Made by a program: the position numbers and the translations under genes. Below, piece by piece: positions 1 through 15,980 of a stretch of 16,704 nucleotides of DNA. Numbering within the stretch: the stretch's first letter is position 1; each line of letters begins with the position of its first letter. The stretch covers positions 1-16,704 of the forward strand of contig JAIRLW010000034.1 of the NCBI GenBank assembly GCA_031259095.1, read 5' to 3'. The notes beneath the pieces were generated by a model. It was not told where the DNA came from and made no database searches. It saw only the letters and a list, made by a program, of their open reading frames with translations. Origin of the DNA: Planctomycetaceae bacterium. GTDB lineage: Bacteria > Planctomycetota > Planctomycetia > Pirellulales > Thermoguttaceae.

Positions 1-2
1 CG

Positions 3-143
3 GCGTATGTTAAATTGGAGAAATTAAAGTTCGCTCACAAATTAAATCATTTTGCCCTCAAAGCGAAAATCTACTGGGCGGCTTCCAAAGCCGCATGGAG
101 CGAACTAAAAAAAATAAAAATCGCAAAAGGGTGCGTAACATGA
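3..143 (+). CDS. C-terminal end of an unrecognised protein (5' end outside window)
   Basis: An open frame runs in from the window edge and ends at TGA 141-143, giving about 46 residues. The peptide is rich in Lys, Ala and aromatic residues (for example AKIYWAASKAAWSELKKIKI) and could be a basic amphipathic helix at a protein C-terminus. No start codon is needed because the gene would begin upstream. Base use in this stretch resembles the coding genes more than the AT-rich spacer that follows, and two small hairpins follow the stop. I do not recognise the family. In many bacteria adk or secY lies upstream of map, but nothing in these residues identifies either. Confidence 0.45.
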   Translation, partial: AYVKLEKLKFAHKLNHFALKAKIYWAASKAAWSELKKIKIAKGCVT

Positions 144-158
144 GTCATATATTGGATT

Positions 159-199
159 GATGCACAAAAGCATCGGAGTAGAAAAAACGTCCCGTTTTT
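159..199 (+). terminator. possible terminator hairpins after the first partial gene
   Basis: A 5-bp stem (GATGC at 159-163 with GCATC at 170-174) is followed by a second, perfect 7-bp hairpin, AAAAACG 183-189 and CGTTTTT 193-199, with a 3-base loop. The T-run in the second arm fits a weak intrinsic terminator for the gene ending at 143. The stem is AT-rich, so this is tentative. Confidence 0.35.
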
Positions 200-423
200 A
201 AACATTCTGGCATTGCAGCATAACGATTGTACTATTGCGGAAAGTAAATATATCTAAATATATCTACAACATGGAACATGGTGTGTATCGTCTATAAATG
301 TATTTTGCCGTTAAGAGTCATAAAAAACTAAAGTATTACTCCTGAAGTTTCAGAAAAAGTATGAAATATTCGGGCTAAAAGCCTTAAAACAATTTTGTTT
401 GTTATTATTTTTAATGTCAAAAG

Positions 424-468
424 ATGAATTGTTAGAGGTGTCTATTGACAGATATAAATGATTTGTTA
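424..468 (+). repeat. 45-bp direct repeat, copy 1
   Basis: This stretch is identical over 45 bases to 2779-2823. It contains TTGACA at 445-450, followed after 16 bases by TATGTT (467-472, just past the exact repeat), so it may be a conserved promoter. Weaker similarity continues on both sides (about 385-424 and 470-680 against 2730-2779 and 2824-2960). This indicates an old duplication rather than a simple short repeat. Confidence 0.85.
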
Positions 469-695
469 TGTTTATTGTTTTGTGTGTGGTAGATATTTTT
501 TCCTAGTGTCCACAGGCTGGTTGTTAAAATAGATAAAATTTCACCAGTAATCTGGAATTTTAAAAGACGGACTTTTTTTTCTAGATCTGTTTTTTCATGA
601 CATTGCTTGTTCAACATATTTGCCAATGATAAGCGTTGATAGATTTTTTGCTTATAAAAATTTACCTAAATTAACAACCACCCTGTAAACACTAG

Positions 696-851
696 GAAAA
701 TTTTTATCGTTCTGGTTCTGGTATATCACCCAAAAGTCCTAAATCACGATACCTTATGTTGCTTGCTATCAATTTATTGATTATCGGTCTTTATTTTCTT
801 TGGAAATATCATAGAATTGGAAATATTGCAGAAAATAAAAAAAGTGAATAA
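696..851 (+). pseudogene. C-terminal remnant of a paralogue of the 3165-4214 anchored protein
   Basis: Read in frame from 696 to the stop TAA 849-851, the DNA encodes about 51 residues that align with the C-terminus of the protein at 3165-4214. By hand, 29 of the first 39 positions are identical. The match includes FYR-GSGI, the SRY lead-in, and the membrane helix beginning LLAINLLIIG and ending YFLWK. The remnant has its own diverged tail (HRIGNIAENKKSE). A stop codon (TAG 693-695) sits directly upstream in frame, and no start or body is present. With the 45-bp repeat and leader similarity at 385-680, this looks like a gene copy that kept its promoter region and tail but lost about 1.1 kb in between. 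Confidence 0.8.
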
Positions 852-1014
852 AATTGAAATAGTCCTACGAATATGATCTATGCTAGGTAAAATCCGAATT
901 GCCCCCCAATAAGGTAATAAGGTTTGGATTTTTAGATAAATCGTTACTACTGAGGTTGTGTTGTTAGAAGAATAAGGTGACAAGAAGTTGTTGAAATAAC
1001 TAATTAAAAGACCT

Positions 1015-1040
1015 TCACGGAAAATTCCACTGAAATATTA
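1015..1040 (-). repeat. solitary MITE-end-like sequence
   Basis: The reverse complement of this stretch matches the left end of the 10375-10573 element (10376-10400) with two substitutions and one extra T in a T-run. It includes the inner TTCCGTGA beyond the terminal inverted repeat. No second end was found nearby, so it may be a decayed or partial copy. It lies 34 bases before the map start codon. Confidence 0.6.
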
Positions 1041-1073
1041 TGAAAAACCTTAAAATAGGAAAAAGGTTGAACG

Positions 1074-1883
1074 GTGTATTCTTATAAATCCGCAATTGAA
1101 ATTGATAAAATGAGGAAAGCGGGATTATATGTTTGGCATAGTTTGCAAATTGCCAAAAACCTTGTTCGTCCCGGAATTACAACCGGCGAAATCAATAACC
1201 GTATCGAGCAATTTTTCGAGGACATGAAGGTAATTCCCCTTTTTAAGGGAGTTCCGGGCAAAGTTCCATTTCCGGCGGCTGCTTGTATTAGTGTTAATGA
1301 AGAAGTCGTTCACGGAATACCTGGTTCGCGGAAACTCGTTGAAGGTGATATTGTTGGAGTTGACACCGGATGTAAAGCAGGCGGTTGGTGCGGCGATTCA
1401 GCAGTTACTTTTCCGGTCGGGAAAATTTCGGAAAAAAAACAACATCTCCTTGACGTAACAGAACACGTTCTTCAAATCGCCATTGAAGAAATTCCTAAAG
1501 CGACTTATTGGAATGAAGTTGCCAAGAAAATGGAAACTTATGCGAAAAAAAACGGCTATTCTGTTGTGGAAACGCTTGTCGGTCATGGAATTGGTCGGGA
1601 AATGCACGAAAATCCCCAAGTCCCAAACTACGTTTCGCGGGAAACTCTCCGCAACAGCGATTTCAAATTGGTGCCGGGACTGGTTATTGCCGTTGAACCA
1701 ATGGTGAATGCCGGAACAAAAGAGGTTCGTTTACTGAGCGATCATTGGACTATTATTACTGCGGATCATAAACCAAGCGCCCATTTTGAACATACGTTGG
1801 CAATCACCGTTTCCGGCGTGCGAGTTTTGACCGGACCGCCCACCACAGAAGAAGAAAAAATTGATATTACCCCTTACATTTGA
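1074..1883 (+). CDS. map: methionine aminopeptidase, type I
   Basis: This cytosolic metalloprotease removes the initiator methionine from nascent proteins. The 269-residue product has the usual length for the bacterial type. The five metal ligands of the family are present as D97, D108, H171, E208 (in VEPM) and E239 (in HFEHT), and the substrate-site histidines H80 (VHGIPG) and H178 are kept. The start is GTG at 1074, preceded by AAGG at 1063-1066; the protein begins YSYKSAIEIDKMRKAG, which matches the family N-terminus, so no extension is needed. It heads the ribosomal block as in many bacteria (adk-map-infA-rpmJ-rpsM), but here 222 bases with no infA separate it from rpmJ. Confidence 0.96.
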   Translation: MYSYKSAIEIDKMRKAGLYVWHSLQIAKNLVRPGITTGEINNRIEQFFEDMKVIPLFKGVPGKVPFPAAACISVNEEVVHGIPGSRKLVEGDIVGVDTGCKAGGWCGDSAVTFPVGKISEKKQHLLDVTEHVLQIAIEEIPKATYWNEVAKKMETYAKKNGYSVVETLVGHGIGREMHENPQVPNYVSRETLRNSDFKLVPGLVIAVEPMVNAGTKEVRLLSDHWTIITADHKPSAHFEHTLAITVSGVRVLTGPPTTEEEKIDITPYI

Positions 1884-2001
1884 TATTTTGGAAAAACTCT
1901 TTTTAAGAAAAAATTTTTTAAAGGGAGGTACTACTTGCAAAGAATTGGTCACGTCTTAAAATAATGACCTCTTTCAGTAAATTTGTACGTCATTCGTAAA
2001 C

Positions 2002-2039
2002 CATTTTGTAAATATCGCATTTTGTAAACATTTTGTAAA
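2002..2039 (+). repeat. three copies of CATTTTGTAAA upstream of rpmJ
   Basis: The 11-mer CATTTTGTAAA occurs at 2002-2012, 2018-2028 and 2029-2039. A degenerate CATTCGTAAA lies at 1991-2000. The copies lie 67 bases or more before the rpmJ start. They could be protein-binding sites or simple slippage. No function can be read from the sequence. Confidence 0.6.
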
Positions 2040-2105
2040 TAATCCTGAATAGTACACGGTAATTTATTCAGAATCAAAGTTAAAAAAAGGTTTTAAGGTA
2101 GAACT

Positions 2106-2219
2106 ATGAAAGTCCGAGCAAGTGTGCGACGAATTTGTGAAAATTGTAAAGTGGTAAAACGTCGGGGACGAGTTTATATCATTTGTGTTAATCCCCGTCA
2201 TAAACAACGACAGGGTTAA
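2106..2219 (+). CDS. rpmJ: 50S ribosomal protein L36
   Basis: This 37-residue protein ([14 protein letters not shown]...) is the smallest large-subunit protein and binds 23S rRNA. The zinc-binding set C11, C14, C27, H32 is intact, so it is the zinc-containing (C+) form. The basic tail NPRHKQRQG is typical. It starts at ATG 2106 with AAGG at 2094-2097 as a possible ribosome binding site. It lies between map and rpsM, its conserved neighbourhood, with 44 bases to the rpsM start. Confidence 0.96.
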
Positions 2220-2263
2220 TTTGTTTTTTTAAAACATTTACGTATAATTTGGGAGATCATTCA

Positions 2264-2647
2264 ATGCCGCGTCTTTTGGGTGTGGATATTCCGAGTAATC
2301 GGCAGATTGTCGTTTCATTGACTTATCTTTACGGCGTAGGTCCCGCAACAGCGCGGGAACTTTGTCGGAAAGCAGAAGTAACCGCAACAGTGCGGGCTAA
2401 AGATTTAGGTGAAAACGACCTTGCCAAATTAGCATCGTTGCTCGATAACGATTATACTGTTGAAGGTCAATTACGCCGTCAGGTGAATCAGAATATCAAC
2501 CGCCTCCGTGAAATCGGTTGTTATCGCGGGATTCGTCATCGTAAAGGGTTGCCGGTTCGCGGTCAACGCACCCGAACCAATGCCCGAACCCGTAAAGGTC
2601 CCAAGAAAACAGTTGCCGGAAAAAAAGGAGTCAAAGATTTACGGTAA
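2264..2647 (+). CDS. rpsM: 30S ribosomal protein S13
   Basis: The 127-residue protein is S13 of the small-subunit head, which contacts tRNA and S19. The N-terminal [14 protein letters not shown], the helix-two-turn-helix core with YGVGPATA, and the C-terminal signature [20 protein letters not shown] followed by TNARTRKG are all present, with the usual basic tail. I place the start at ATG 2264 because GGGAG (2251-2255) lies 8 bases upstream and the family starts at MPR. An in-frame TTG at 2249 would only add MGDHS. The gene is closed by a double stop, TAA TAG. In the standard order rpsK would follow directly, but here 1.7 kb intervenes. Confidence 0.96.
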
Positions 2648-2778
2648 TAGCAATTTCCGTGTGAATGTCTGTAGATTTTATAGTCTGTCGGCATCATAAA
2701 AAAAATCAACTAAGTGTAATCACGAAAACTCTTAAATTCTTTTGTTTGTGTTTGTTATCAAAATTTTAGTGTTGACGA

Positions 2779-2823
2779 ATGAATTGTTAGAGGTGTCTAT
2801 TGACAGATATAAATGATTTGTTA
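2779..2823 (+). repeat. 45-bp direct repeat, copy 2
   Basis: This is identical to 424-468. It sits about 340 bases upstream of the anchored-protein gene at 3165, just as copy 1 sits upstream of that gene's remnant at 696-851. Shared position relative to paralogous coding ends indicates that the repeat belongs to the gene module. Confidence 0.85.
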
Positions 2824-2827
2824 AATT
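2800..2827 (+). promoter_or_regulatory. sigma70-like promoter candidate for the inserted gene
   Basis: A perfect TTGACA (2800-2805) is followed by a 16-base spacer and TAAATT (2822-2827). The -35 box and spacer are conserved exactly in copy 1 of the repeat, where the -10 position reads TATGTT. Conservation in an otherwise diverged duplication supports function. It would give a leader of about 330 bases. Confidence 0.45.
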
Positions 2828-2990
2828 TACAGCATTGTGTGTGTTAAATGGATAAGATTATAACAGGAAATGGAATTTTAGAGATTGGTTTCCTGCTAAA
2901 ACTATTTGAATATCGTTTTAGATATTTAGATAATTTTTATAAATAGGCTTAGAAATTAACAAATATTCCAAAATGTTTAGAAAAATATTA

Positions 2991-3133
2991 TGAGAATCTC
3001 TAAAAATATTATTTTACGAATAATGATTTCTCACAAAGGTCATAAAGAAAAAATTTATAAATCGCTTATAAGTAAGGTTTATTGTTTTAATAGAATTTTT
3101 GTGTTTTTTGTGGGAAAAATTTAGAGATTCTCA
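2991..3133. repeat. 14-bp inverted repeat pair in the leader
   Basis: TGAGAATCTCTAAA at 2991-3004 is exactly complementary to TTTAGAGATTCTCA at 3120-3133, with 115 bases between. The same core (AGAGATTCTC) recurs after the gene at 4250-4260. The pair could close a long RNA stem ending 31 bases before the start codon, or could be paired protein-binding sites. Confidence 0.7.
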
Positions 3134-3164
3134 ATAAATATAAATTATAAATACAGAAAGCTTA

Positions 3165-4214
3165 ATGCCTATTAAAAGTATATTATTTTTTATTTGTAAT
3201 ATTTTTTTCTTATCTTTACCTGTATTTGCACAAACAAATCAGATTTTTGAAGAAGAAAAGTTGTGTTTGGAGAATAGACTCAAAATGAAAACATGGCACA
3301 TTGTTTTTAACAGGAACATAGTGGATAAGGAAGATACTGATCGAAATAATGTGATTCAAAATGTATATATTTATGACATTAATAGACAACGTTCAGATAA
3401 GACAAAATTACAAGAGTCCCTAGATAAAGAAATCAAGCCTTGCACAAGGACATACTTTTATGATGGAAAGAGAATGCATTCTTATGAATCGGGTATTGAT
3501 AAAGATGGAGCAACATGGGCGTTGGAATTTAGAACACCGGATGGATCACGTGAAAAAGAGCAATATGAATCCTATTTTGATGTTCGTATTCTTGGTATGA
3601 ATACTTCAGGTATCTATTTGAGACTCCCACTCACTGCACTCATTACTACCTCTTATCCCGAAATAAAACGTGGTGAAATAGTTGATGAGACTTGTAATGG
3701 AATTCCCTGCAAGAAAATTACTTATATTTTGGATAATCGACCCTATAGCCATTGTTGGATCGCTCCTTCCAAGGGATATTCGGTTATTCGTTTTGAAATC
3801 AGATCAACAGACGGCATATATTATGAATACACTGACTTGAAAGTTCAAGAATATAAAAATTCAGGAATTTGGTATCCTTATTACAGTAAATTTGAAAGAT
3901 ATGAAAACAACGAATTGACTATTTCTGAAGAAATGGATATTGATGTTATTTCCATTAATGAACCTATTGATGATAAATATTTCAGTCTTGCTTCTCTGAA
4001 TATTCCACCAGGAACAATGGTAGCAGACCCCGAATTGGGAAGAGGTAATTATGTATGGGACGGAAAAGAAGTTGTTTCGGAAGATTTTTATCGTTATGGT
4101 TCCGGCATACCACAGCAAAGTCCCCGATCTCGGTATTTTGTATTGCTTGCTATCAATTTACTGATAATCGGTATTTATTTTCTTTGGAAATTTCACAGCA
4201 CAAAAATTAAGTGA
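3165..4214 (+). CDS. exported protein with C-terminal membrane anchor, family not identified
   Basis: The 349-residue product starts with a clear Sec signal peptide (basic MPIK, hydrophobic 5-20, likely cleavage after VFA at 22). The body is extracytoplasmic, and one transmembrane helix at about 324-342 is followed by a basic tail, KFHSTKIK, so the C-terminus should be cytoplasmic. The body is rich in beta-strand-like, aromatic segments such as FYDGKRMHSYESG, CNGIPCKKITYILDNRPYSH and CWIAPSKGYSVIRFEIRS. This pattern recalls LolA-like beta-sandwich proteins common in planctomycetes, but that is an impression, not a match I can prove. The DNA is much more AT-rich than the ribosomal genes on either side and has no strong ribosome binding site. 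A second, gutted copy exists at 385-851. I do not assign a function. Confidence 0.85.
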   Translation: MPIKSILFFICNIFFLSLPVFAQTNQIFEEEKLCLENRLKMKTWHIVFNRNIVDKEDTDRNNVIQNVYIYDINRQRSDKTKLQESLDKEIKPCTRTYFYDGKRMHSYESGIDKDGATWALEFRTPDGSREKEQYESYFDVRILGMNTSGIYLRLPLTALITTSYPEIKRGEIVDETCNGIPCKKITYILDNRPYSHCWIAPSKGYSVIRFEIRSTDGIYYEYTDLKVQEYKNSGIWYPYYSKFERYENNELTISEEMDIDVISINEPIDDKYFSLASLNIPPGTMVADPELGRGNYVWDGKEVVSEDFYRYGSGIPQQSPRSRYFVLLAINLLIIGIYFLWKFHSTKIK

Positions 4215-4247
4215 ACGACACTAAGAGAGAATATGGTAATAAGTATT

Positions 4248-4264
4248 TTTAGAGATTCTCTAAA
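4248..4264. repeat. 17-bp palindrome TTTAGAGATTCTCTAAA
   Basis: This is a perfect odd palindrome (TTTAGAGA, T, TCTCTAAA) 33 bases after the stop of the inserted gene. It shares its core with the inverted repeat in that gene's leader, so the gene is bracketed by related sequences at 2991, 3120 and 4248. It could be an operator, a recombination end, or a weak terminator stem. There is no T-run after it. Confidence 0.65.
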
Positions 4265-4288
4265 GGAATCATTAAAAAATTAATTTTA

Positions 4289-4326
4289 TTCGACTTTGGT
4301 CGATTTTAGTTGACTGAAATCGAAAT
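4289..4326 (+). repeat. 10-bp-unit repeat array, copy C (short)
   Basis: Units TCGACTTTGG, TCGATTTTAG, TTGACTGAAA and TCG follow head to tail with a 10-base period. They are the same unit family as the arrays at 8034-8131 and 14153-14250. This copy is short and lacks the outer arms. It lies 32 bases before rpsK, at the right side of the insert. Confidence 0.6.
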
Positions 4327-4357
4327 AATTAGTCAAAATATTAATCAATAAATCAAC

Positions 4358-4741
4358 ATGGCAAAAGTAGTTAAAAAACGAAAAGTCAAAAGAATTGTTG
4401 CGGCGGGAATCGCCCACATCAAAGCGACTTTTAACAATACGACCGTAACAATCACCGACTCCAAAGGCGACGCTCTTTGTTGGTCAACGGCTGGTACTTG
4501 CAACTTTAAAGGAAGTAGAAAAAGTACGCCGTTTGCCGGTCAAATGGCTGCCCAGCAAGCGGCGGAAAAAGCAATGAAATTCGGAATGAAAGAAATTGAA
4601 GTCCGAATCAACGGACCAGGAAGCGGTCGTGAAAGTGCGATTACGGCGTTGCAGCAAGCCGGTTTAACGGTTAAATCCATTGAAGATGTTACGCCGTTAC
4701 CGCATAACGGTTGCCGTCCCAAAAAACGTCGGCGAGTTTAA
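4358..4741 (+). CDS. rpsK: 30S ribosomal protein S11
   Basis: S11 lies in the platform of the small subunit, binds 16S rRNA and helps form the mRNA exit region. The 127-residue protein has the family core [30 protein letters not shown], written here with its break at DSKG, then [21 protein letters not shown], and the closing [13 protein letters not shown] and THP-like segment [18 protein letters not shown]. The start ATG 4358 gives the expected [10 protein letters not shown]. There is no Shine-Dalgarno sequence upstream; the leader is AT-only around AATCAATAAATCAAC. Because the insert separates it from rpsM, it either depends on read-through across the inserted gene or needs its own promoter. 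Confidence 0.96.
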
Positions 4742-4904
4742 TGTTTAATTGTTGTTTCGTATTTTTTGTAACTATTGTCCTAAGTAACTCTGTTGTCTGT
4801 CGGACGGCGTTCATTATCGGGAATGCCCTAGTTTGTTTGTTTCCGTTTTAAAGTATCATCAATATTTTCAATAGTTTGTTTTGTTTCAATAGAAATTCAA
4901 TTTT

Positions 4905-5531
4905 ATGGCACGTAATACAGAAGCAGTTTGTCGAAAATGCCGGCGTGAAGGTTTCAAACTTACCTTGAAAGGAAGTCGTTGCGATACGGAAAAATGTGCG
5001 TTCAACCGCCGTTCCAACGCGCCCGGAATGCATGGATCCCGAAAAGGAAAATTGACCGATTACGGTGTTCATCTTCGTGAAAAGCAAAAGGTAAAAAATT
5101 ATTACGGCGTCCTTGAAAAACAATTCCGTAAATATTTCGGAATGGCAGAACGAATGAAAGGAAATACGGGATTAGTTCTGATGGGACTTCTTGAACGCCG
5201 TCTTGATAACATTGTTTATCGGCTTGGTTTTGGATCGTCACGTTCCCAAGCCCGTCAATGGGTTTCACATGGTCATATTCAGGTGAACGGCGGACGGGTT
5301 GATATTCCAAGTTATTTAGTGCGAATGGGCGACGTCATTACGATACGTAATCGTCCTAAAAGTACGAAAGCGATTAAAAATGTGATTGAAGAAGGTTTAC
5401 GCGATGTTCCTGAATTTCTGTATCGGGACAACGCCGCGATTCCTAAAGGCGTGGTGATGCGGTTGCCTACAGCGGAGGATGTTACATTACCGGTTGATTC
5501 GGCGTTGATTGTCGAACTTTGTTCCAAATAA
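4905..5531 (+). CDS. rpsD: 30S ribosomal protein S4
   Basis: S4 is a primary 16S rRNA-binding assembly protein and, in many bacteria, the translational repressor of this operon. The 208-residue product carries a zinc-type N-terminus, C9-X2-C12-X13-C26-X4-C31, and an S4 RNA-binding domain around residues 97-160 ([11 protein letters not shown], then [18 protein letters not shown], then VRMGDVI). The start ATG 4905 gives MARNTEAVC. No strong ribosome binding site is visible. The 163-base spacer before it contains nothing I can name. It lies in the expected order rpsK-rpsD-rpoA. Confidence 0.96.
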
Positions 5532-5611
5532 TTACAAAACATTACCGGCTGATTTTCCCGATTTCCCTAGTTATTAGATTATTTCAGCGTTCATTTTTCG
5601 GAGGTTTCTTT

Positions 5612-6697
5612 ATGCGTATTCGATGGCGAGGTTTGGAACTCCCCAGCAAAGTAACATGCGACCCGGTCTCCTTAACGGAGACTTATGGAAAATTTATCGC
5701 CGAACCGTTTGAACGCGGTTTTGGTCATACGGTCGGTAATAGTTTGCGCCGCGTTTTACTTTCCAGCCTCGAAGGAAGTGCTGTAACGCGAATCAAAATT
5801 AAAAACGCCCTTCACGAATTTATGTCCTTGAAAGGCGTTTACGAAGATGTTACGGAAATTGTTTTAAATGTTAAATCGCTTGTGGTCAAATCTTACGACG
5901 ACAAGCCGAAAGTTCTACGAATTTCCAAAAAGGTAAAAGGACCCGTTACCAGCGACGATATTCAACGCGATGACATGGTTGACGTGATTAACAAAGGTCA
6001 TCATATCGCCACACTGACCGACGATGTTCCGTTTGAAATGGAAATGGTGGTCGAAAACAGTCGTGGTTATGTTCCCGCAACCGAGCAGTTGGCTCATATT
6101 CGGGAAAAAAACGATGATATTGGTTTCATTCCGCTTGATGCGGCATTCAGTCCGGTTGTTCGTGTCCAATACAGTGTTGAGGAAACGCGCGTCGGTCAAA
6201 AAACAAATTATGACCGGTTAACAATGCAAATTTGGACGGACGGATCAATTAGTCCGGAATTTGCAATCGTTGAAGGAGCGAAAATATTCCGAAAACATTT
6301 GAATCCGTTCCTCCAATATGATCGGCTTGAAACCGGCGTTTTTGCTAAGGTGAAACCGTTTGGATCGATAGGAATTGATCCGGGATTGGAAGAAAAATTA
6401 AAAATGTCGGTAACTCAATTGGAACTTTCTGTTCGGGCAGTGAATTGTCTTGAATCGGAAAAAATTAATTTTGTTCGTGATTTGGTGGTACGAACCGAAG
6501 AGTCGCTTTTAGATATGCGAAACTTTGGCGAAACGACCTTGACCGAAGTAAAAGAAAAATTACGCAAATTTGATCTTCAACTTGGTATGAGGATTCCTCC
6601 GCAGTTATTGAATGCGACTACTCCTCAGACCACTGCCGCAACCACTGCCGCCACTGCATCAACCACTCAAACAACGGCTGCTCCCTATACCACATAA
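5612..6697 (+). CDS. rpoA: DNA-directed RNA polymerase subunit alpha
   Basis: Alpha dimerises to nucleate RNA polymerase assembly. In the 361-residue protein the N-terminal domain spans about 1-240 ([20 protein letters not shown] at 31-50, and [10 protein letters not shown]), followed by a linker and the DNA-binding C-terminal domain at about 268-326 ([31 protein letters not shown]). The start is ATG 5612, with a strong GGAGG at 5600-5604 seven bases upstream; an in-frame upstream start at 5519 would overlap the end of rpsD and add 31 non-conserved residues. Residues 334-361 form an unusual tail of Thr, Ala and Gln, encoded partly by a 12-base direct repeat (6629-6639 and 6641-6651). Confidence 0.97.
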
Positions 6698-6754
6698 ATT
6701 TTTTTCGTTTAATTTTTTTGTTTAATGATTTTCGTTTAACAAATGGTGAACGGC

Positions 6755-6792
6755 AACGGTTTTATTGTTGCAATTTTCTAAAACCGTTTTTT
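6755..6792 (+). terminator. intrinsic terminator-like hairpin between rpoA and rplQ
   Basis: A perfect 10-bp stem, AACGGTTTTA (6755-6764) with TAAAACCGTT (6779-6788), has a 14-base loop and runs into six T residues (6787-6792). It lies in the 141-base gap between rpoA and rplQ. It could end or attenuate transcription after rpoA. The stem is AT-rich, so partial read-through is likely. Confidence 0.55.
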
Positions 6793-6838
6793 ACAGACAA
6801 CCGATTATCATTGTTAAATTCATAGAGACGGTGATTTT

Positions 6839-7399
6839 ATGCGACATTTGAATAAAGGACGTAAACTTGGTCGAAACCCGAATCATCAACGGGCGTTGCT
6901 CAAAAATTTGATTGTTTCGATTTTGATGACTGAACGCGACGCGACCGACGAAGAAAACGCGCCGAAAACGCCGGGTCGGATTATTACGACCTTGCCGAAG
7001 GCGAAAGAAGTTCGTCCGCTTCTAGAAAAGTGTGTTACGATTGCTAAAAAGGCACAAACACATATTAGTGCGGCGGCGCGTTTTGAGAGTCCGGCGGAGC
7101 GCGGTTCTGAGGAATGGCGAAAGTGGCGTAACAGCGAGGGCTGGCAGGAGTGGAATAAGGCGATTGCGCCAGCATTGGCGGCACGTCGCCGGGCGCTTCA
7201 ACTTATTGGCAACAAGGAAGCGGTACAAATTCTTTTCGAAGTGGTTGCACCGCGATATCTTAACCGTAATGGCGGTTACACAAGAATCTTGAAATTATTC
7301 AAGCCGCGTCTTGGTGATGCGGGAACGCAGGCGATTCTCGAATTTGTCGGTAAAAACGACCGTGTTAAAGCCCGATCGCAACGGCTCAAAGTAGAGTAG
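6839..7399 (+). CDS. rplQ: 50S ribosomal protein L17, long form
   Basis: L17 binds 23S rRNA near the peptide exit tunnel. The N-terminus MRHLNKGRKLGRNPNHQRALLKNL and the closing RNGGYTRILKLFKPRLGDAG, each quoted across its conserved core, are diagnostic. At 186 residues it is much longer than the roughly 120-130 of E. coli. The extra length comes from an insertion at about 34-47 (DATDEENAPKTPGR) and a charged, Trp-rich stretch at about 79-112 (SEEWRKWRNSEGWQEWNKAI). Both insertions are in frame and similarly codon-biased, so they are genuine. I associate long L17 forms with planctomycetes, but cannot verify that here. The start ATG 6839 gives the family N-terminus. Confidence 0.95.
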   Translation: MRHLNKGRKLGRNPNHQRALLKNLIVSILMTERDATDEENAPKTPGRIITTLPKAKEVRPLLEKCVTIAKKAQTHISAAARFESPAERGSEEWRKWRNSEGWQEWNKAIAPALAARRRALQLIGNKEAVQILFEVVAPRYLNRNGGYTRILKLFKPRLGDAGTQAILEFVGKNDRVKARSQRLKVE

Positions 7400-7432
7400 A
7401 ATGCCGAAGTAGGACATTCGGCTGAACGTAGG

Positions 7433-8026
7433 ATGGTTACGAAATCAAAACGTCGGTCGTTTGATTATACGACGGCAATCGCTAGGGTTTGCGAAGATAT
7501 TTGTTTTCGTGTACCGGCATTGAGTCATATTGACATGTCGCGTGTTGCGGTCAGCTTCGCCCAAACGAAACATAGTGCGCCGTTTGGCATCTTCGCAACA
7601 ACGACACCGTTACGTTTCAAGGGCGGTGAACTTTTTATACAAAGTCAGGGCAAACTTTGGACGTTGCAGCGTTGTTACCGACCTGACGGAGTAGAATATC
7701 TTTACATTCTTTATTTTTACGTTCCGCGATTCATTGAACTAAAATTGTCTCAAAAGCTTGAAACGATTGTTCATGAATTATATCATATCAATCCTGACTT
7801 TAACGGTGATTTACGGCGATTCAAGGGACGTTGTTTTGCACACGGTTCTTCGCAAAAAAAATATGATCAAACCGTCCGTGATTTTGTCAATCATTGGCTG
7901 AAACAGAATCCTCCGCCCAAAGTCTGGAATTTTCTTCAATATAATTACAAAGAACTAATTACAGAATTTGGCGGCTTGCACGGAACACGCATTCCTGCGC
8001 CAAAAATCATTCTCTTCGAAAAGTAA
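7433..8026 (+). CDS. putative zinc metallopeptidase-like protein (HExxH)
   Basis: The 197-residue protein has no signal peptide or membrane segment. A helix-like segment holds the zincin motif H114-E115-L-Y-H118 (in TIVHELYHINP). H137 (CFAHG) is a possible further ligand, but the third ligand is not certain. The middle contains strand-like aromatic segments (VEYLYILYFYVPRFI). It resembles short phage or cellular putative metallopeptidases of unknown role; I cannot exclude a non-peptidase. It follows rplQ by 33 bases and may be co-transcribed with it. The start ATG 7433 is chosen because it gives the longest frame; the purines just before it (GTAGG) sit too close for a standard Shine-Dalgarno. 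Function is not established. Confidence 0.75.
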   Translation: MVTKSKRRSFDYTTAIARVCEDICFRVPALSHIDMSRVAVSFAQTKHSAPFGIFATTTPLRFKGGELFIQSQGKLWTLQRCYRPDGVEYLYILYFYVPRFIELKLSQKLETIVHELYHINPDFNGDLRRFKGRCFAHGSSQKKYDQTVRDFVNHWLKQNPPPKVWNFLQYNYKELITEFGGLHGTRIPAPKIILFEK

Positions 8027-8033
8027 GGAAATA

Positions 8034-8131
8034 GGGAACATCTAAAAACTTATTTTTTCACAGACTAAATTCGACCGAAATCGACTAAAATCGATTTTAG
8101 TCGATTTTAGTCGATTTCGGTCAATAACTTC
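8034..8131. repeat. 10-bp-unit palindromic element, copy A
   Basis: This element shares its whole left half with copy B (14153): GGGAAC, CTAAAAACT, CACAGACTAAA, then 10-base units. Its core is a perfect 22-bp stem, 8073-8094 with 8101-8122, separated by only six bases (TTTTAG). The units are TCGATTTTAG, TCGATTTTAG and TCGATTTCGG. The right outer arm of copy B is missing here. It begins 8 bases after the metallopeptidase-like gene and could also act as a terminator stem, though no T-run follows. Confidence 0.85.
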
Positions 8132-8153
8132 AAACCACTGTCTTTCGGGGCAA

Positions 8154-8182
8154 TTGCAACCGAATAAAAAAAAAACTATAAT
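8154..8182 (+). promoter_or_regulatory. sigma70-like promoter candidate for tkt
   Basis: TTGCAA (8154-8159), a 17-base spacer and a consensus TATAAT (8177-8182) lie 112 bases before the tkt start. It is located right after the copy A palindrome, which would separate it from upstream transcription. Confidence 0.5.
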
Positions 8183-8201
8183 ACCGACATTCTGTTAAAT
8201 C

Positions 8202-8242
8202 AATTAAGTAATAAGTAATTAAGTATTAAGTATTAAGTAATA
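8202..8242 (+). repeat. AT-rich short repeat tract in the tkt leader
   Basis: About five units of the TAAGTAT/TAAGTAAT type follow each other in the predicted leader of tkt. It reads as a simple repeat prone to slippage. Length variation could change the leader, but no function is evident. Confidence 0.6.
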
Positions 8243-8293
8243 ATTCTTCCGCAACTATTTTTCCTTTACACCAACCCAACAGGAACCAGTTTT

Positions 8294-10357
8294 ATGACGT
8301 TTTCGATGACTTCATTAGAGAAAAAAGCCGTTGACACCATCCGAACACTTTCGATGGAAGCCGTCCAACAAGCTAATAGCGGACACCCGGGAACTCCGAT
8401 GGCACTTGCGCCGCTTGGTTATCTTTTGTTCAACGAAGTGTTGAAATATGATCCGGCAGATCCCGCATGGATTGGACGTGATCGTTTTGTTCTTTCGGCG
8501 GGTCATGCTTCGATGCTGATTTATTCGTTACTTCATCTTTCCGGCGTGAAGCAGTTGGATACCCAACGCAAACCAACCACCGAACCGGCAGTTTCTTTGG
8601 ACGACATCAAAAATTTCCGACAACTCGGAAGTCGTTGTGCCGGTCATCCGGAATATGGTCATGTTTCCGGTGTTGAAGTTACAACGGGACCATTGGGCGC
8701 GGGAGTGGCAACCAGTGTCGGAATGGCGATTGCCGCCAAATGGTTTGCCGGACGTTACAATAGTTCCACGCATAAATTGTTTGATTCTAATGTGTTTGCC
8801 ATTTGCGGCGACGGCGATATGATGGAAGGAATCAGCGCGGAAGCGGCATCGCTCGCCGGACATCTTAAACTTTCTAACCTCTGTTGGTTTTACGACAACA
8901 ACAAAATTACTATCGAAGGAAGTACCGATTTAGCGTTCACCGAAGATGTCGGTAAACGGTTTGAGGCTTACGGTTGGAATGTGTTGCGGGTCGATGATGT
9001 GAACGATTTACCGGCATTACGGCAAGCTGTTGAAATGTTCCGAAAAACAGAAGATAAACCAACGTTAGTGATTGTGAAGAGTCAAATTGGTTTTGGTTCT
9101 CCCAAGTTAGCCGGTTCTCACGAGGCGCACGGTGCGCCGCTTGGCGAAGACGAAGTAAAAGCAACAAAAAAAATCTATGGTTTTGATCCTGAGAAAAAAT
9201 TTGCGGTAGAACCGGAAGTGTATCAATTATTCGCAGATGGAATTGGTCGGCGCGGTACGAAGTTACGAACCGAATGGGATAAACAGTTCAAGGAATATCG
9301 TCAACAATTCAAAGAGCAAGCCGAAGAATTGACTCAAATTGCGGCTGGCGAACTCCCTAACGATTGGAATACCGAAATGAAACCGTTTCCGGCGGATCCG
9401 AAGGGAATAGCGAGTCGTGTTTCGTCCGGTAAGGTTCTTAATCAGTTGGCGAGCAAGTTGCCTTGGATACTTGGCGGTTCGGCAGACCTTGCTCCATCGA
9501 ATAAATCGGATTTAACGTTTCTTGGTGCGGGCGAATTTAGTGTGGAAACTCCGGCTGGACGCAATTTTCATTACGGTATTCGGGAACACGCGATGGGAGC
9601 AATCACTAATGGTCTTACGTTGTCGGGACTTCGGGCTTATTGTGCAACATTTTTTGTGTTTGCGGATTATTTACGTCCGGCAATTCGGCTGAGTGCGTTG
9701 ATGAAAATTCCGGCAATGTACCTTTTCACACATGATTCTATTGGCGTCGGCGAAGACGGACCAACTCATCAACCCATTGAACATTTAGCGTCCCTTCGGG
9801 CAATTCCAAATGTTGCGGTATTTCGTCCGGCGGATGCGAATGAAGTAAGCGAATCGTACAAAGCGGCTATGTTGTTGAAAGAAACTCCTTCGGTTCTGGT
9901 GTTCACACGGCAAAATCTGCCAACTATTGACCGTACAAAATTCGGTTCCGCTGAAGGAGTTGCGAAAGGCGCGTATATTCTCGCCAAAGAAACCGGAAAT
10001 TCTGTTCCGCAAATTATTCTGCTGGCAACTGGCAGCGAAGTTGGGCTTTGTCTTGAAGCGTGGGAAAAATTGACCGCCGAAGGAATTAAAACACGTGTGG
10101 TGAGTATTCCCTGTTTCGAATTATTTGAACGTCAGCCGATAGAATATCGTAACGAAGTGTTGCCGCCGACCGTGAATGCTCGTGTTGGCGTGGAACTCGG
10201 AATTGAACAAGGTTGGCGAAACTATCTCGGCGATCACGGATTATTTCTTGGCATGACCGGTTTCGGGGCAAGTGCGCCGGCTGGAGTGTTAATGAAACAT
10301 TTCGGTTTTACCGTCGAAAATCTTTGCCGTCTGGCGAAACAAGTTCTTGATAAATAA
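8294..10357 (+). CDS. tkt: transketolase
   Basis: Transketolase moves two-carbon ketol units between sugar phosphates in the pentose phosphate pathway, using thiamine diphosphate and Mg. The 687-residue protein has the full three-domain length. The thiamine diphosphate site is seen as H31 (SGHPGTPM), H71, GDGDMMEG at 172-179 and N202-N203 (DNNKI). The catalytic glutamate is E431 in GIREHAMGAI, and the sugar-binding H480-D481 lies in LFTHDSIGVGEDGP followed by THQP. The start ATG 8294 has AGGA at 8281-8284; a second ATG at 8306 is also possible and would remove four residues. It is monocistronic as seen, with a promoter candidate upstream and a transposon-like element 17 bases after its stop. 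Confidence 0.97.
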   Translation: MTFSMTSLEKKAVDTIRTLSMEAVQQANSGHPGTPMALAPLGYLLFNEVLKYDPADPAWIGRDRFVLSAGHASMLIYSLLHLSGVKQLDTQRKPTTEPAVSLDDIKNFRQLGSRCAGHPEYGHVSGVEVTTGPLGAGVATSVGMAIAAKWFAGRYNSSTHKLFDSNVFAICGDGDMMEGISAEAASLAGHLKLSNLCWFYDNNKITIEGSTDLAFTEDVGKRFEAYGWNVLRVDDVNDLPALRQAVEMFRKTEDKPTLVIVKSQIGFGSPKLAGSHEAHGAPLGEDEVKATKKIYGFDPEKKFAVEPEVYQLFADGIGRRGTKLRTEWDKQFKEYRQQFKEQAEELTQIAAGELPNDWNTEMKPFPADPKGIASRVSSGKVLNQLASKLPWILGGSADLAPSNKSDLTFLGAGEFSVETPAGRNFHYGIREHAMGAITNGLTLSGLRAYCATFFVFADYLRPAIRLSALMKIPAMYLFTHDSIGVGEDGPTHQPIEHLASLRAIPNVAVFRPADANEVSESYKAAMLLKETPSVLVFTRQNLPTIDRTKFGSAEGVAKGAYILAKETGNSVPQIILLATGSEVGLCLEAWEKLTAEGIKTRVVSIPCFELFERQPIEYRNEVLPPTVNARVGVELGIEQGWRNYLGDHGLFLGMTGFGASAPAGVLMKHFGFTVENLCRLAKQVLDK

Positions 10358-10374
10358 TAAATAAACAAATAAAC

Positions 10375-10573
10375 GTAATATATCAGCGGAATTTCCGTGA
10401 TCGGTTATTTTGTCTTAGTCCCGCAGAAACGAGAGGTGCATAACCGGCGATGGAGCGCAGCGCACCGCCGGAAAGTTCCAATCCGTAGGTTGCGCTGCGC
10501 TACACCTACGGTTATGCCCATCACACCCCTAGCGGGGTTAAAATTGAAATACAAAATTCCACTGATATATTAC
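10375..10573. mobile_element. non-autonomous MITE-like element with 20-bp TIRs and 8-bp target duplication
   Basis: The left end 10375-10394 (GTAATATATCAGCGGAATTT) is complementary to the right end 10554-10573 at 19 of 20 positions. The 8-mer AAATAAAC lies immediately outside both ends (10367-10374 and 10574-10581), as a target-site duplication would. The interior codes for nothing and folds heavily: CCGGCG/CGCCGG, an 11-bp AGCGCAGCGCA/TGCGCTGCGCT pair (10454-10464 with 10491-10501), CCGTAGGT/ACCTACGG (10483-10490 with 10504-10511) and CCCC-TAGC-GGGG. Intact ends and duplication suggest a fairly recent insertion. Movement would need a transposase from elsewhere, and none is in the window. Confidence 0.8.
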
Positions 10574-10623
10574 AAATAAACAAAAGGTTTAAGGTTGGAT
10601 GTTTATGAGGATGCCGGAATATC

Positions 10624-10652
10624 TTGCTCAACGGTTCGGTTTCAGGTAGAAT
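10624..10652 (+). promoter_or_regulatory. weak promoter candidate for the iron-sulfur gene
   Basis: TTGCTC (10624-10629), a 17-base spacer and TAGAAT (10647-10652) lie 83 bases before the start codon at 10736. The -10 box is good and the -35 box is poor, so this is tentative. Confidence 0.35.
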
Positions 10653-10735
10653 GTCACGTTACTCTTGATATTTTCCGTTAATCGTCCTGTCGGCGATAAA
10701 CATGACCTTTCAAACATTTTTAATCCTATTGTTCC

Positions 10736-11737
10736 ATGTCCCAAATTATTACTCGTGAAAAATTAAATCAGATTATTGATAAACTTTTAACCGACAAAAA
10801 AATTGTTGCCGGTACGGTTGCCGCATCCGGATCACGGTTCTTTTTTCGCACGCTCCGCCAATCGGATCAACTCGTTCTCGATTCAAACATCATGCCAACC
10901 AATTCCGTCAAAGAATTTTTCTTTCCGCAACACGAAACTATTTGCAAATATCGTTACGAAGGAAAAGAACTTGTCGTCAACGACGCTGAACCGTTTGCAG
11001 TTGACCAGATTATTTTCAGCGCACGACCTTGCGACGCCGCGAGTCTGCCGATTCTCGACAAAATTTTTAACTGGGATTATCACGACCGGTTTTATCAGTT
11101 ACGGCGGGAAAAATCAATTGTTGTTACGTTGGCGTGTCGTCAGGCGGACGAAAATTGTTTTTGTACTTCTGTCGGACTTTCGCCCGATACTCAATCAGGC
11201 GCAGACGCCATGCTGCTTCAGATTAATACTGAAACGTTTGAAGTCCGAACTTTTACCGATAAAGGTAAAACATTGTTCGATGGTCAAACGGTTTCGTCCG
11301 ATCAAACCGGTCAAACAGCCGCGCCGCCGGAAGTTCGGTTTGATTCTAAAAATGTCGAAAAATATCTGACCGAACATTTTAACGATCCGGTTTTCGATGA
11401 AACCAGTATGCGTTGCGTTTCCTGCGGTGCGTGTACGTATCTTTGTCCAACCTGTCACTGTTTCGATATTGTTGACGAAGGCGGAGCGGCAAAAGGTAAT
11501 CGTGTCAAAAATTGGGACACGTGTCAGGTTCCGCTGTTCACGCTTCACGCCTCCGGTCATAATCCCCGAAACAACCAGTCCGCGCGGCAACGAAACAGAA
11601 TTCAGCATAAATTTTGTATCTATCCGGGAAAATTCGGATTGATTCTCTGCACCGGTTGCGGTAATTGCACACGCGATTGTTCCGCATCGCTCGGCGTTAG
11701 ACCATTACTGGAATTATTGGACAAAAAAATCCGGTAA
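10736..11737 (+). CDS. 4Fe-4S dicluster protein, AsrA/sulfhydrogenase beta-subunit-like
   Basis: The 333-residue protein matches the pattern of the family that includes anaerobic sulfite reductase subunit A (AsrA) and the electron-transfer beta subunit of archaeal sulfhydrogenase (HydB). The N-terminal part has the family-like ARPCDAASLPILDKIF (residues 96-111) and ACRQADENCFCTSVG (133-147, Cys 134, 141, 143). The C-terminal part has two ferredoxin motifs, C227-X2-C230-X2-C233-X3-C237 and C305-X2-C308-X2-C311-X3-C315, each expected to help bind a 4Fe-4S cluster. In the family it passes electrons to a partner with FAD/NAD-binding domains (AsrB/HydG type). No such partner or catalytic subunit lies next to it in this window, so its electron donor and acceptor are unknown. 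The start ATG 10736 has no clear Shine-Dalgarno. Confidence 0.88.
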   Translation: MSQIITREKLNQIIDKLLTDKKIVAGTVAASGSRFFFRTLRQSDQLVLDSNIMPTNSVKEFFFPQHETICKYRYEGKELVVNDAEPFAVDQIIFSARPCDAASLPILDKIFNWDYHDRFYQLRREKSIVVTLACRQADENCFCTSVGLSPDTQSGADAMLLQINTETFEVRTFTDKGKTLFDGQTVSSDQTGQTAAPPEVRFDSKNVEKYLTEHFNDPVFDETSMRCVSCGACTYLCPTCHCFDIVDEGGAAKGNRVKNWDTCQVPLFTLHASGHNPRNNQSARQRNRIQHKFCIYPGKFGLILCTGCGNCTRDCSASLGVRPLLELLDKKIR

Positions 11738-11924
11738 ATCTATCGGCAACTATCTGTTTTAATAATACAAATTTAATAACACAAAATTGACACAATTTTC
11801 ATCATTTACAAATTCAGAAATGGGTTCATTATGCAAATTTTGTTCATTCTGTTGGAAAAAAAAATTGAACAATAAATATAGACCGTTACTGCCGTTAATC
11901 CTAGAGTGAGAAAGGAGAAACACG

Positions 11925-12190
11925 ATGTTCCCTACAATTTCGATGTTCTGCGGAATTATCATCGTATGTTTTGGGAAAAAGGTGAACCGCATCATCTTCC
12001 CCATATTCACGCAGAATATCAAGACAATAATGCCGTTTTCAATATTTCAGATGGGGAAATATTGACGGGAACAATGCCAAAACGACAAACTAAGATAATT
12101 CAAGGTTGGATTGCCGAGCATGAGGACGAGTTGCTCGCAAACTGGAAATTGGCAATGAACAATGAACCACTATTTAAGATTCAAAAATAA
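11925..12190 (+). pseudogene. DUF4160 protein, frameshifted near its N-terminus
   Basis: A strong ribosome binding site (AGGAG, 11913-11917) lies seven bases before ATG 11925, which begins MFPTISMFCGIII, the usual start of DUF4160 proteins. That frame then loses the family sequence at about 11963. The rest of the domain (RMFWEKGEPHHLPHIHAEYQ, then ISDGEILTGTMPKRQTK and EDELLANWKLA) continues in another frame to the stop at 12188-12190. One missing base near 11963 (ATC-CGT expected, ATCGT present) explains it. The open frame usable without a shift would start at GTG 11906 with no ribosome binding site and a non-family N-terminus. Function is unknown; DUF4160 genes often sit beside DUF2442 genes, as here, and have been considered toxin-antitoxin-like. 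A sequencing error remains possible. Confidence 0.75.
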
Positions 12191-12191
12191 A

Positions 12192-12470
12192 ATGAAAGAC
12201 AATGATATCGTGTACGGAAAAGAACCGTTAGGACCGCGTGTCGTTCATGTTGTTCCTAATAACGATTACACGTTAACCTTAACGTTTACCAACGGCGAAG
12301 TTAAAAGTTACGATATGAATCCATTGCTTGATAAGGGAATATTTCAGGAGTTACGGAATATTGGTTATTTTAACTGTGTTCGAGTGAATGCCGGAACGGT
12401 CAAATGGTCCCACGAACAAGATATTTGTCCTGATGTCCTGTACCTTGATTCCAAACCAATTCTACGATAG
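12192..12470 (+). CDS. DUF2442 domain protein
   Basis: The 92-residue protein shows the DUF2442 pattern: TLTLTFTNGEVKSYDMNPLL in the centre, then ELRNIGYFNCVRVNAGTVKW and a closing DICPDVLYLDS. The start ATG 12192 lies one base after the stop of the DUF4160 frame, which fits translational coupling. An in-frame ATG at 12162 would overlap that gene and add 10 non-family residues. No ribosome binding site is visible at 12192. If the upstream gene is truly frameshifted, coupling may be disturbed. Function is unknown; it is paired with DUF4160 in many genomes. Confidence 0.85.
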   Translation: MKDNDIVYGKEPLGPRVVHVVPNNDYTLTLTFTNGEVKSYDMNPLLDKGIFQELRNIGYFNCVRVNAGTVKWSHEQDICPDVLYLDSKPILR

Positions 12471-12559
12471 TATCAATAATGCATCATCTTTCAGTGAATT
12501 TTTTGTTTTTTTTAAGGCAATCTTCCTTAGTTTACGTAGTTTTTTCAAATAAAACCCCC

Positions 12560-13891
12560 ATGAAACGTAATCAATTTTTTCTTTATGCCGTCTGTTTTTT
12601 AATCGGATTCTTGACCGTAATCATTCAAGCGGAAGAAACCGTAACTCCTGAACAGCAACGGATTTTACGTTTAAAAAAATTTCCGGTACAAAATCAGGCT
12701 CAATGGATGACCGATTATTTGTTGTTACCGCAAGGAGGTCTGAACAACAAAGACGTGATTGATGTGATGCGTCGGATTCCGCGTCATCGTTTTGTTCCGC
12801 CGTTACCTCAATCAGTTGCCTATTGGGATCAGGCGATTGCGATTGGTCATGCACAAACAATTTCTCCGCCATATATTGTTGCGTTTATGACGGAACAATT
12901 AACGCCGAAACCAACTGATAAAGTTCTCGAAATTGGAACCGGCAGCGGTTATCAGGCTGCGGTGCTGAGTTTACTCGTCCGCGAAGTTTATACGATTGAA
13001 ATTGTCGAACCGCTTGGAAAACAAGCCGAAAAATTACTTAAAACGCTTGAGATGGACAATGTTCATGTCCGAATCGGCGATGGTTATCAAGGTTGGTCGG
13101 AAGCGGCTCCGTTTGACAGTATTATCGTAACTTGTTCGCCGGAGTCCATCCCGCAACCGTTAATCGATCAACTTCGTGAAGGCGGACGGATGATCATTCC
13201 TGTCGGAGAACGTTTTCAGCAATCTTTTTATTTGTGTCAAAAAGTCAACGGCAAACTCAACAAAGAACGATTGAATCAAACGTTGTTTGTTCCGATGACC
13301 GGCAAAGCGGAGGAACAACGTACAGTTCAGCCGGATGTTAAAAACCCGACGATTATCGGCGGAGATTTCAATGAAGTCCGCGAAGATGGTTTGCCGGTTG
13401 GCTGGCATTATGCGCGGAATGTCGAAATTCTTACGCTCAACGACGTTTCGGGTGGAAAGAAAATGGCGCGTTTCATCAATAAACCGGAAAAAAAAATAAC
13501 CCAAAACGACCATATTAACGCCAAAAATCAAACGCTGTCGGAACCACAAATTATTTCGCAAGTATTACAAGGTTTTGCGGTTGACGGGCGTGAAGTTTCC
13601 AAACTTAAAATCAATTATTGGATTCGCGGACAACAAATTGTTGCTCGTCACGGTCATGTGATGACTCCAACCGGTATCATTTCATTTTTTGACGAAAACC
13701 GGAGACAAATTGCTGATATTCCGTTGGGCAGTTGTCGCGGAACATTTACATGGGAAGAAGTGTTACGAAATATCCCTGTCAAACCGGAAACCCGCGAAGC
13801 CGTCCTACTGATTGGACTTCCTCTTGCAACCGGACAACTTGATGTTCACAGTATTGTTGTCGGGTGCGCTGACGATACGGTTTCTGAATAA
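12560..13891 (+). CDS. pcm: exported protein-L-isoaspartate O-methyltransferase with extra C-terminal domain
   Basis: The enzyme family methylates isoaspartyl residues with S-adenosylmethionine to start repair of aged proteins. The 443-residue product has a signal peptide or N-terminal anchor at 1-24 (MKRNQFFLYAVCFLIGFLTV). It then has the methyltransferase domain at about 50-250, with RIPRHRFVPPLPQSVAYWDQ, AQTISPPYIVAFM, the SAM loop VLEIGTGSGYQAA at 122-134, and GGRMIIPVG. Residues about 265-440 form a second, beta-rich domain (GGDFNEVREDGLPVGWHYAR) resembling carbohydrate-binding sandwich modules. The usual cytosolic enzyme is near 210 residues, so this is about double. I start at ATG 12560 because it gives a proper signal peptide; an upstream ATG at 12479 would add 27 residues before it. 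Export would require SAM outside the cytosol, which is puzzling. Confidence 0.9.
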   Translation: MKRNQFFLYAVCFLIGFLTVIIQAEETVTPEQQRILRLKKFPVQNQAQWMTDYLLLPQGGLNNKDVIDVMRRIPRHRFVPPLPQSVAYWDQAIAIGHAQTISPPYIVAFMTEQLTPKPTDKVLEIGTGSGYQAAVLSLLVREVYTIEIVEPLGKQAEKLLKTLEMDNVHVRIGDGYQGWSEAAPFDSIIVTCSPESIPQPLIDQLREGGRMIIPVGERFQQSFYLCQKVNGKLNKERLNQTLFVPMTGKAEEQRTVQPDVKNPTIIGGDFNEVREDGLPVGWHYARNVEILTLNDVSGGKKMARFINKPEKKITQNDHINAKNQTLSEPQIISQVLQGFAVDGREVSKLKINYWIRGQQIVARHGHVMTPTGIISFFDENRRQIADIPLGSCRGTFTWEEVLRNIPVKPETREAVLLIGLPLATGQLDVHSIVVGCADDTVSE

Positions 13892-13955
13892 TTTTAATTA
13901 CAAAAATAAAATAGTACAAATACCTCTTGAGTAGGCAACTTTACAAGGTCGCATC

Positions 13956-14010
13956 GGCGAAACATCGCCTTAGCCCTGAAAGGGCTGTCAGATTATAGCC
14001 CTTTCAGGGT
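13956..14010. repeat. adjacent hairpins, REP-like
   Basis: GGCGA (13956-13960) pairs with TCGCC (13965-13969). Directly after it, GCCCTGAAAGGGCT (13973-13986) pairs with AGCCCTTTCAGGGT (13997-14010) at 13 of 14 positions over a 10-base loop; the left arm is itself palindromic. Located 64 bases after the pcm stop, it may stabilise the mRNA end, or be a member of a dispersed palindrome family. There is only one copy in this window. Confidence 0.6.
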
Positions 14011-14112
14011 GTAAGGAAAACACTAGTTCATGTTATATTAATTGTTGTAAAACACACAATCTATACTCAATTAGGCATCTCTGAGCAACTTAGTTTTGCG
14101 CGCTGACTGAAT

Positions 14113-14156
14113 GTCCCTTTAGTCCCTCTAAAAAAGGACTTTAGAGACTTTAGGGA
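14113..14156. repeat. imperfect inverted repeat before copy B
   Basis: TCCCTTTAGTCCCTCTAAA (14113-14131) pairs imperfectly with TTTAGAGACTTTAGGGA (about 14140-14156). An alternative AGTCC/GGACT stem lies inside it. It abuts and slightly overlaps the copy B palindrome, so the two may be one compound element. Confidence 0.5.
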
Positions 14157-14250: not shown

Positions 14251-14268
14251 GATTCCCAATTGACGGGA

Positions 14269-14296
14269 TTGAGTCAATTCTTTTTGACGGTATAAT
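14269..14296 (+). promoter_or_regulatory. sigma70-like promoter candidate for pfp
   Basis: TTGAGT (14269-14274), a 16-base spacer and a consensus TATAAT (14291-14296) lie about 165 bases before the pfp start and just after the copy B palindrome. A second TTGACG at 14260 is too far from the -10 box. Confidence 0.5.
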
Positions 14297-15972: not shown

Positions 15973-15980
15973 GAGGTTCC

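Follow-up and report, generated by a model that had tools for sequence, protein, structure and literature searches.

How does a gene for a likely exported protein come to lie between two ribosomal protein genes, when few bacterial gene orders are as well conserved as the ribosomal one and selection is expected to act against insertions in it? The question is raised by a stretch of 16,704 nucleotides from a Planctomycetaceae bacterium (assembly GCA_031259095.1, contig JAIRLW010000034.1, positions 1 to 16,704; hereafter the window), in which rpsM ends at position 2647 and rpsK starts at 4358. The gap of 1,710 bp, given as 1.7 kb in the first-pass annotation of this DNA, holds a single open reading frame (ORF) starting with ATG, which runs in the direction of the operon and codes for 349 amino acids (copy A). 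The explanation that we hold to be moderately probable is that this gene, for a likely exported and membrane-anchored protein of the LolA/RseB type, was carried into the rpsM-rpsK spacer with repeats of miniature inverted-repeat transposable element (MITE) families, and that it would be transcribed with the ribosomal genes. Beyond what the first pass had noticed, similar insertions occur elsewhere in the same genome, and each of the three copies of the gene (A, B and C) has a mobile-repeat end at its right-hand junction or close to it. Such an arrangement, if true, would link the supply of an envelope protein to growth.

A gene foreign to the rpsM-rpsK junction

The draft that contains the window (G000; the window's contig is C188, and coordinates without another locus name are window positions) is a metagenome-assembled genome (MAG) of 653 contigs, 78% complete, 5.1% contaminated and rich in repeats. 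Its relatives, where they bear names, are Planctomycetaceae MAGs, which we take to be termite-gut genomes. A search with RpsK in 23 relatives found a match in 21; RpsM lay on the same locus in 20 of these, the other being cut by a contig end, and in all 20 the two genes are 18-301 bp apart, in line with the adjacency presumed at first to be normal. A second scan (58 of 73 loci examined, overlapping the first 20 relatives in some genomes) found rpsM in 21 loci and rpsK also in 20 of these, at distances of 27-301 bp. The longest spacer, 301 bp, belongs to the nearest relative (G014, whose Map, RplB and NusG proteins are the most similar); it carries a repeat end of its own, resembling the second MITE family described below, and is without the gene. 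Presence of the same insert in all relatives, named in advance as the mark of an old resident gene, was looked for: the insert is absent from this junction in 20 of 20, and the best full-length match in the genus, among 20 further drafts that are 65-90% complete, has 38% identity, with short stretches of up to 41%.

The foreign part is narrower than the gap (2648-4357) and extends from about 2714 to about 4260. To the left, comparison with G013 by eye shows relative-like sequence as far as about 2713, and the pairwise alignment to G014 reaches 2678; to the right, a relative-like rpsK leader is found again from about 4263 in two of the five relatives aligned (L055 and L058), the best local alignment of that leader falling elsewhere in the other three. 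The AT richness remarked on earlier holds against the genome's own composition. The gene has a GC content of 33.2%, and of 25.8% at third codon positions, against 44.2% (standard deviation 3.5) and 40.8% (standard deviation 5.2) in 112 reference ORFs of at least 250 amino acids from 55 of the 653 contigs; GC is as low in 0.9% of these ORFs. The leader that precedes the gene has 24% GC, a value equally low in 3.3% of 1,193 segments of 500 bp from the genome. The gene is an insert foreign to this site.

A wrong join made during assembly or binning has to be considered in a draft of such fragmentation, completeness, contamination and repeat content, but two wrong joins would be required for each insert, the gene has relative-like spacer to its left and to its right, and a paralog occupies the same kind of place on an independent contig (C491). 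We regard such an artefact as highly improbable.

Sister copies and the repeats at their ends

The paralog on C491 (copy B) is 70% identical to copy A and lies between rplW and rplB, likewise in operon direction; these two genes are 34-281 bp apart in the 19 relatives in which both were placed (22 had RplB). A decayed third copy (C) is found upstream of map. Copies A and C have the leader and the gene end in common, and B and C the gene end and the tail, so that the ancestral unit likely consisted of leader, gene and tail. To this extent the earlier proposal that the insert arrived as a module stands, although none of the units found has a matching end on either side. Outside the three copies the draft contains distant family members only (at most 32% identity over longer matches), and the leader sequence is confined to A and C.

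The tails of B and C finish in AAAATTCCACTGAAATATTA, exact in B and with one mismatch in C, and are 70-77% identical to one half, from centre to end, of a near-palindromic MITE of 277-292 bp. At up to two mismatches, AAAATTCCACTGAAATATTA occurs 298 times in G000, 606 in G014, 639 in G005, 201 in G012, 34 in G011 and 37 in G013, and not at all in G001, G008 and G015, the reversed motif giving no match in any of the nine genomes; 40 unselected G000 contigs gave 34 matches to the 21-mer at up to four mismatches and none for the reversed motif. In a sample of 55 G000 and 23 G014 contigs, some picked for holding the motif, 105 ends formed 25 inward-facing pairs, 23 of which span 23-525 bp and two 3.2 and 6.7 kb. 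Flanks could be read for 20 pairs spanning 50-600 bp; 5 of these have target duplications of 8 bp (at least 7 of 8 bases), three of them exact, against 0.52 with shuffled flanks. The same MITE end, with one mismatch, also lies on the expected side of IS66 transposase fragments at three G014 loci (L233, L237 and L241). Ends starting with GTAA and 8-bp duplications are described as IS66 traits in PMC11946415 and PMC3916326. Having inverted GTAA ends shared with an IS66 locus, and the 8-bp duplication, the repeat is an IS66-type MITE.

A second MITE family, with the end motif GAGAATCTCTAAAAAT, has 52 matches in 317 kb against 3 for the reversed motif; no target duplication was recognized for it. 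One exact end lies on the right side of copy A, about 2 bases from the end of the copy, and two more ends lie in the leader of A (Table 1).

The likeness between B and C ceases at the MITE end, which makes this repeat end the likely moving edge in at least one event. The rplW-rplB spacer of G014 carries a degenerate left end of the IS66 type (16 of 21 bases, p 0.004), suggesting that MITEs used this spacer earlier than copy B did. The 8 bases after the right end of B are TTAATTTT, 7 of which match TTAATTTA at the left limit of relative-like sequence, by eye and in AT-rich DNA. Delivery of the copies by MITEs is likely, whereby the gene would move together with the mobile repeats, in the case of copy A into the rpsM-rpsK spacer, by transposition or by MITE-mediated recombination; since just one end is recognizable, the step itself is one that we infer. 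The capture of passengers by IS66 has a precedent in PMC12888890. IS66-family MITEs and tIS66 elements with a passenger, such as ISPa75 carrying fosZ, are alike in having GTAA ends of about 21 bp and 8-bp duplications, whereas copies B and C have one end only and no transposase, and copy A lies near another repeat family. Mobile insertion cassettes are transposase-less units with insertion sequence ends and a passenger gene; here too a gene without transposase lies beside an insertion sequence-type end, but a complete two-ended unit was not found.

Several observations weigh against this account of delivery. None of the copies has an IS66-type left end (p against shuffles 1.0 for A, 0.998 for B and 0.78 for C), so neither transposition nor recombination is proven; no unit with both terminal repeats surrounds B or C, and no target duplication was confirmed at A, B or C. 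The right end of A comes from a different repeat family than those of B and C, the spacer resumes beside it in only two of the five relatives aligned, and, because the gene-less spacer of G014 contains a similar end, the family-2 repeat beside A may predate the insert. As to the MITE itself, 15 of the 20 pairs are without a clear duplication (6 of 8 bases or fewer), and no such end is within reach at 8 of 13 IS66 loci, including the strongest match, L232 in G013; at L234 the end is on the wrong side, and at L238 it is found only with 4 mismatches. No IS66 transposase match was found in the G000 draft. A MITE could also have landed beside a gene that moved in another way.

The absent left ends fit a crossover inside a near-palindromic MITE, and the tails of B and C begin near the MITE centre. 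The copies may thus have arisen by homologous recombination within the genome, a gene with half a MITE recombining with MITEs in ribosomal spacers and no transposase acting, in keeping with the hundreds of MITE ends in the genome and with the MITE-like sequence in the rplW-rplB gap of G014. This would require a donor copy, however, and another crossover on the left side, and the draft, at its 78% completeness, otherwise has only the distant members, the leader being found in A and C alone. This course of events we judge improbable.

The age of the copies is a further point against delivery as proposed. Synonymous divergence (dS) between A and B is 0.89, above the 0.40-0.57 of five ribosomal genes between G000 and G014, so that, if rates are alike, the A-B split precedes that of the two genomes, and A and B are not fresh copies of each other. 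A ratio of nonsynonymous to synonymous rates (dN/dS) of 0.22 between them indicates that the protein sequence is maintained by purifying selection. Genes of the A and B type may instead have entered the operons in an ancestor and been lost from the sampled relatives, MITEs landing later by chance. The dS values favor this, as do an A-like protein (P0002, 82%, on a contig of 2,572 nucleotides) and a B-like one (P0003, 89% to B, on a contig of 3,552 nucleotides with the source label Bacteroidales) from other metagenomes, and the presence of a repeat in both gaps of G014, the IS66-type left end in rplW-rplB and the family-2-like end in rpsM-rpsK. Loss would be needed in every lineage leading to the 20 (rpsM-rpsK) and 19 (rplW-rplB) relatives, or gain and loss within one short branch, and an end of the B-C likeness at the repeat end is not expected from later chance landings; we hold old residence to be unlikely, but worth serious consideration. 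The family alignment, run against genome_contigs and viral_contigs, from which the own and very near genomes may be excluded, gave 65 and 116 pattern-matching stretches and no confirmed relatives.

Two long end pairs were weighed as the autonomous element: that of L155 (3,166 bp), with no transposase and no target duplication recognized by eye, and that of L231 (6,719 bp). A complete IS66-type MITE lies at 10375-10573 of the window, downstream of a transketolase gene, its ends having 2 and 0 mismatches. A term search of the literature for MITEs in termite-gut Planctomycetes found nothing related. At the rplW-rplB junction, the three remaining relatives with RplB comprise one locus cut by a contig end (L119) and the genomes G002 and G006, where no RplW was found beside rplB (L103, L105, L322 and L333), unlike the rest of the genus; these two may be rearranged there.

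Table 1. Positions of the copies, repeat ends and flanking genes in the window
Feature	Position	Strand	Remarks
Copy C, leader remnant	377..494	+	82% identical over 393-494
Copy C, 3' end of decayed gene	695..814	+	82% nucleotide identity to copy A
Copy C, tail	907..1041	+	Right half of IS66-type MITE
Copy C, end motif	1021..1041	+	1 mismatch to 21-mer; 32 bp upstream of map
map	1074..1883	+	Downstream of copy C
rpsM	2249..2647	+	Upstream flank; TTG at 2249 from ORF tool, ATG at 2264 likelier start
Copy A, leader	2714..3164	+	Very AT-rich; 2725-2849 common to copy C; left limit by eye
Family-2 MITE end motif GAGAATCTCTAAAAAT	2992..3007	-	Exact; inside copy A leader
Second family-2 end motif	3117..3132	+	2 mismatches; orientation opposite to motif at 2992
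Copy A, gene	3165..4214	+	349 amino acids; signal segment, predicted LolA/LolB/RseB-type domain, C-terminal membrane segment
Family-2 end motif	4245..4260	+	Exact; right side of copy A
rpsK	4358..4741	+	Downstream flank

Predicted fold, expression and possible role of the product

Hydropathy windows above 1.6 at residues 1-24 and 322-344 agree with the signal peptide and C-terminal anchor read earlier from the translation, and the copy A protein is likely exported and membrane-anchored. Comparison with LolA-like folds, suggested by the first-pass annotation as a check, bore fruit: the predicted structure is a half-barrel of the LolA type, as in the LolA/LolB/RseB superfamily. The match to Pfam LolA_like (PF17131) has 15.1 bits, below the cut-off of 30, and the protein is not assigned to that family. 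Against the fold it counts that a predicted local distance difference test (pLDDT) score of 73 was reached by only two of five structure models, and that the Foldseek template modeling score to LolA3 is 0.39 by query length.

The predicted fold is common to the LolA/LolB/RseB-MucB superfamily, whose periplasmic members carry lipoproteins or lipids or act as stress sensors. Canonical LolA is a soluble periplasmic protein without a membrane anchor, whereas the copy A protein has the C-terminal membrane segment; the RseB/MucB stress sensor is paired with an anti-sigma factor or extracytoplasmic function (ECF) sigma gene. The copy A gene lies among ribosomal genes, which are the neighbors of both A and B in the local neighborhoods covered. 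From the predicted fold, and because distant members often lie beside genes for cysteine-rich, likely secreted proteins and DUF1573 proteins, the product, tethered to the inner membrane, would bind lipid, lipoprotein or a secreted peptide in the periplasm. In the wider family, 12 of 28 loci of the genus (30 rows minus 2 repeats of the same contig or gene) adjoin one or the other kind of partner, the reference proteins being drawn from six of these loci and recognized by Pfam for DUF1573 and by eye for the cysteine-rich type. Neither kind of partner was seen next to copy A or copy B.

Cysteine-rich, likely secreted proteins beside LolA-like genes were noted at L003, L006, L029, L030, L033, L049 and L052; four that were tested gave no Pfam match better than E 0.24. 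Two of ten further neighboring proteins tested are C39 peptidases; the cysteine-rich neighbors at some loci and the peptidases at others are possibly signs of a secreted-peptide system. A term search found no literature on DUF1573 in Planctomycetes.

Matches to sigma-70-like promoters number 12, against 10.7 in shuffles, with no excess over chance, and since the gene lies within the operon and in its direction, copy A would be expressed by read-through from the ribosomal promoter. A terminator-like site at 4290-4303, between copy A and rpsK (one, against 0.4 in shuffles), weighs against its transcription with the ribosomal genes.

Further insertions in translation operons

Two other junctions of G000 are split by genes for likely exported proteins. 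Between rpsH and rplF lies a gene for a likely exported protein of 234 amino acids (L158, 3075-3779, minus strand). A search of 23 other genomes met its family in 7, which belong to the same genus but do not include the nearest genomes. Between secE and nusG lie a distant LolA-like gene and a DUF1573 gene (L165, 5740-7529, minus strand); of 25 relatives searched, 24 allowed both genes to be placed, and in all 24 this junction measures an estimated 19-584 bp. Together with copies A and B this makes four intact insertions (rpsM-rpsK, rplW-rplB, rpsH-rplF and secE-nusG), plus the decayed one, in a single genome. They raise the question of whether core operons can be remodeled by miniature transposable elements, and that of whether a ribosomal transcript may serve as a growth-rate meter for envelope proteins. 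The broader idea, that in this planctomycete lineage MITE families are vehicles which repeatedly deliver exported-protein genes into ribosomal operons as a preferred, growth-coupled home for envelope proteins, is put forward tentatively and is rather unlikely. A term search of the literature for insertions and gene order in Planctomycete ribosomal protein operons found nothing related.

The ribosomal gene order was surveyed in 19 genomes, the survey taking in same-strand ORFs of at least 90 amino acids within gaps longer than 350 bp. Extra ORFs were seen in G005 (154 amino acids, rpsH-rplF), G004 (153, rplB-rpsS) and G011 (457, adk-map); the ORFs listed for the four outgroup genomes of the order resemble rplR, secY and adk, as judged by eye. 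The locus L318 (G007, contig C422) has many S10-spc spacers of 178-533 bp, with no extra ORF of at least 90 amino acids listed in those above 350 bp. Members of the distant family lie beside translation genes at secE-nusG (two genomes), ssb and the aspartyl- and tyrosyl/tryptophanyl-tRNA synthetase genes; enrichment there is not claimed, as the neighbors identified cover just some of the loci, with no control. In G014, a trio of DUF1573, cysteine-rich and LolA-like genes is placed directly upstream of secE instead.

The spacer upstream of map resembles a hot spot: adk adjoins map in G001 and G013, but in G005 and G011 (L169 and L170) the place is taken by an ORF that by eye looks like a transposase and by the 457-amino-acid ORF, respectively, and in G000 by the decayed copy C (window 1-1073). 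Elsewhere in the window, between rplQ and the transketolase gene, an ORF at 7433-8023 has a weak match to PhageMetallopep (E 2.4e-4, 21.6 bits, cut-off 23.7).
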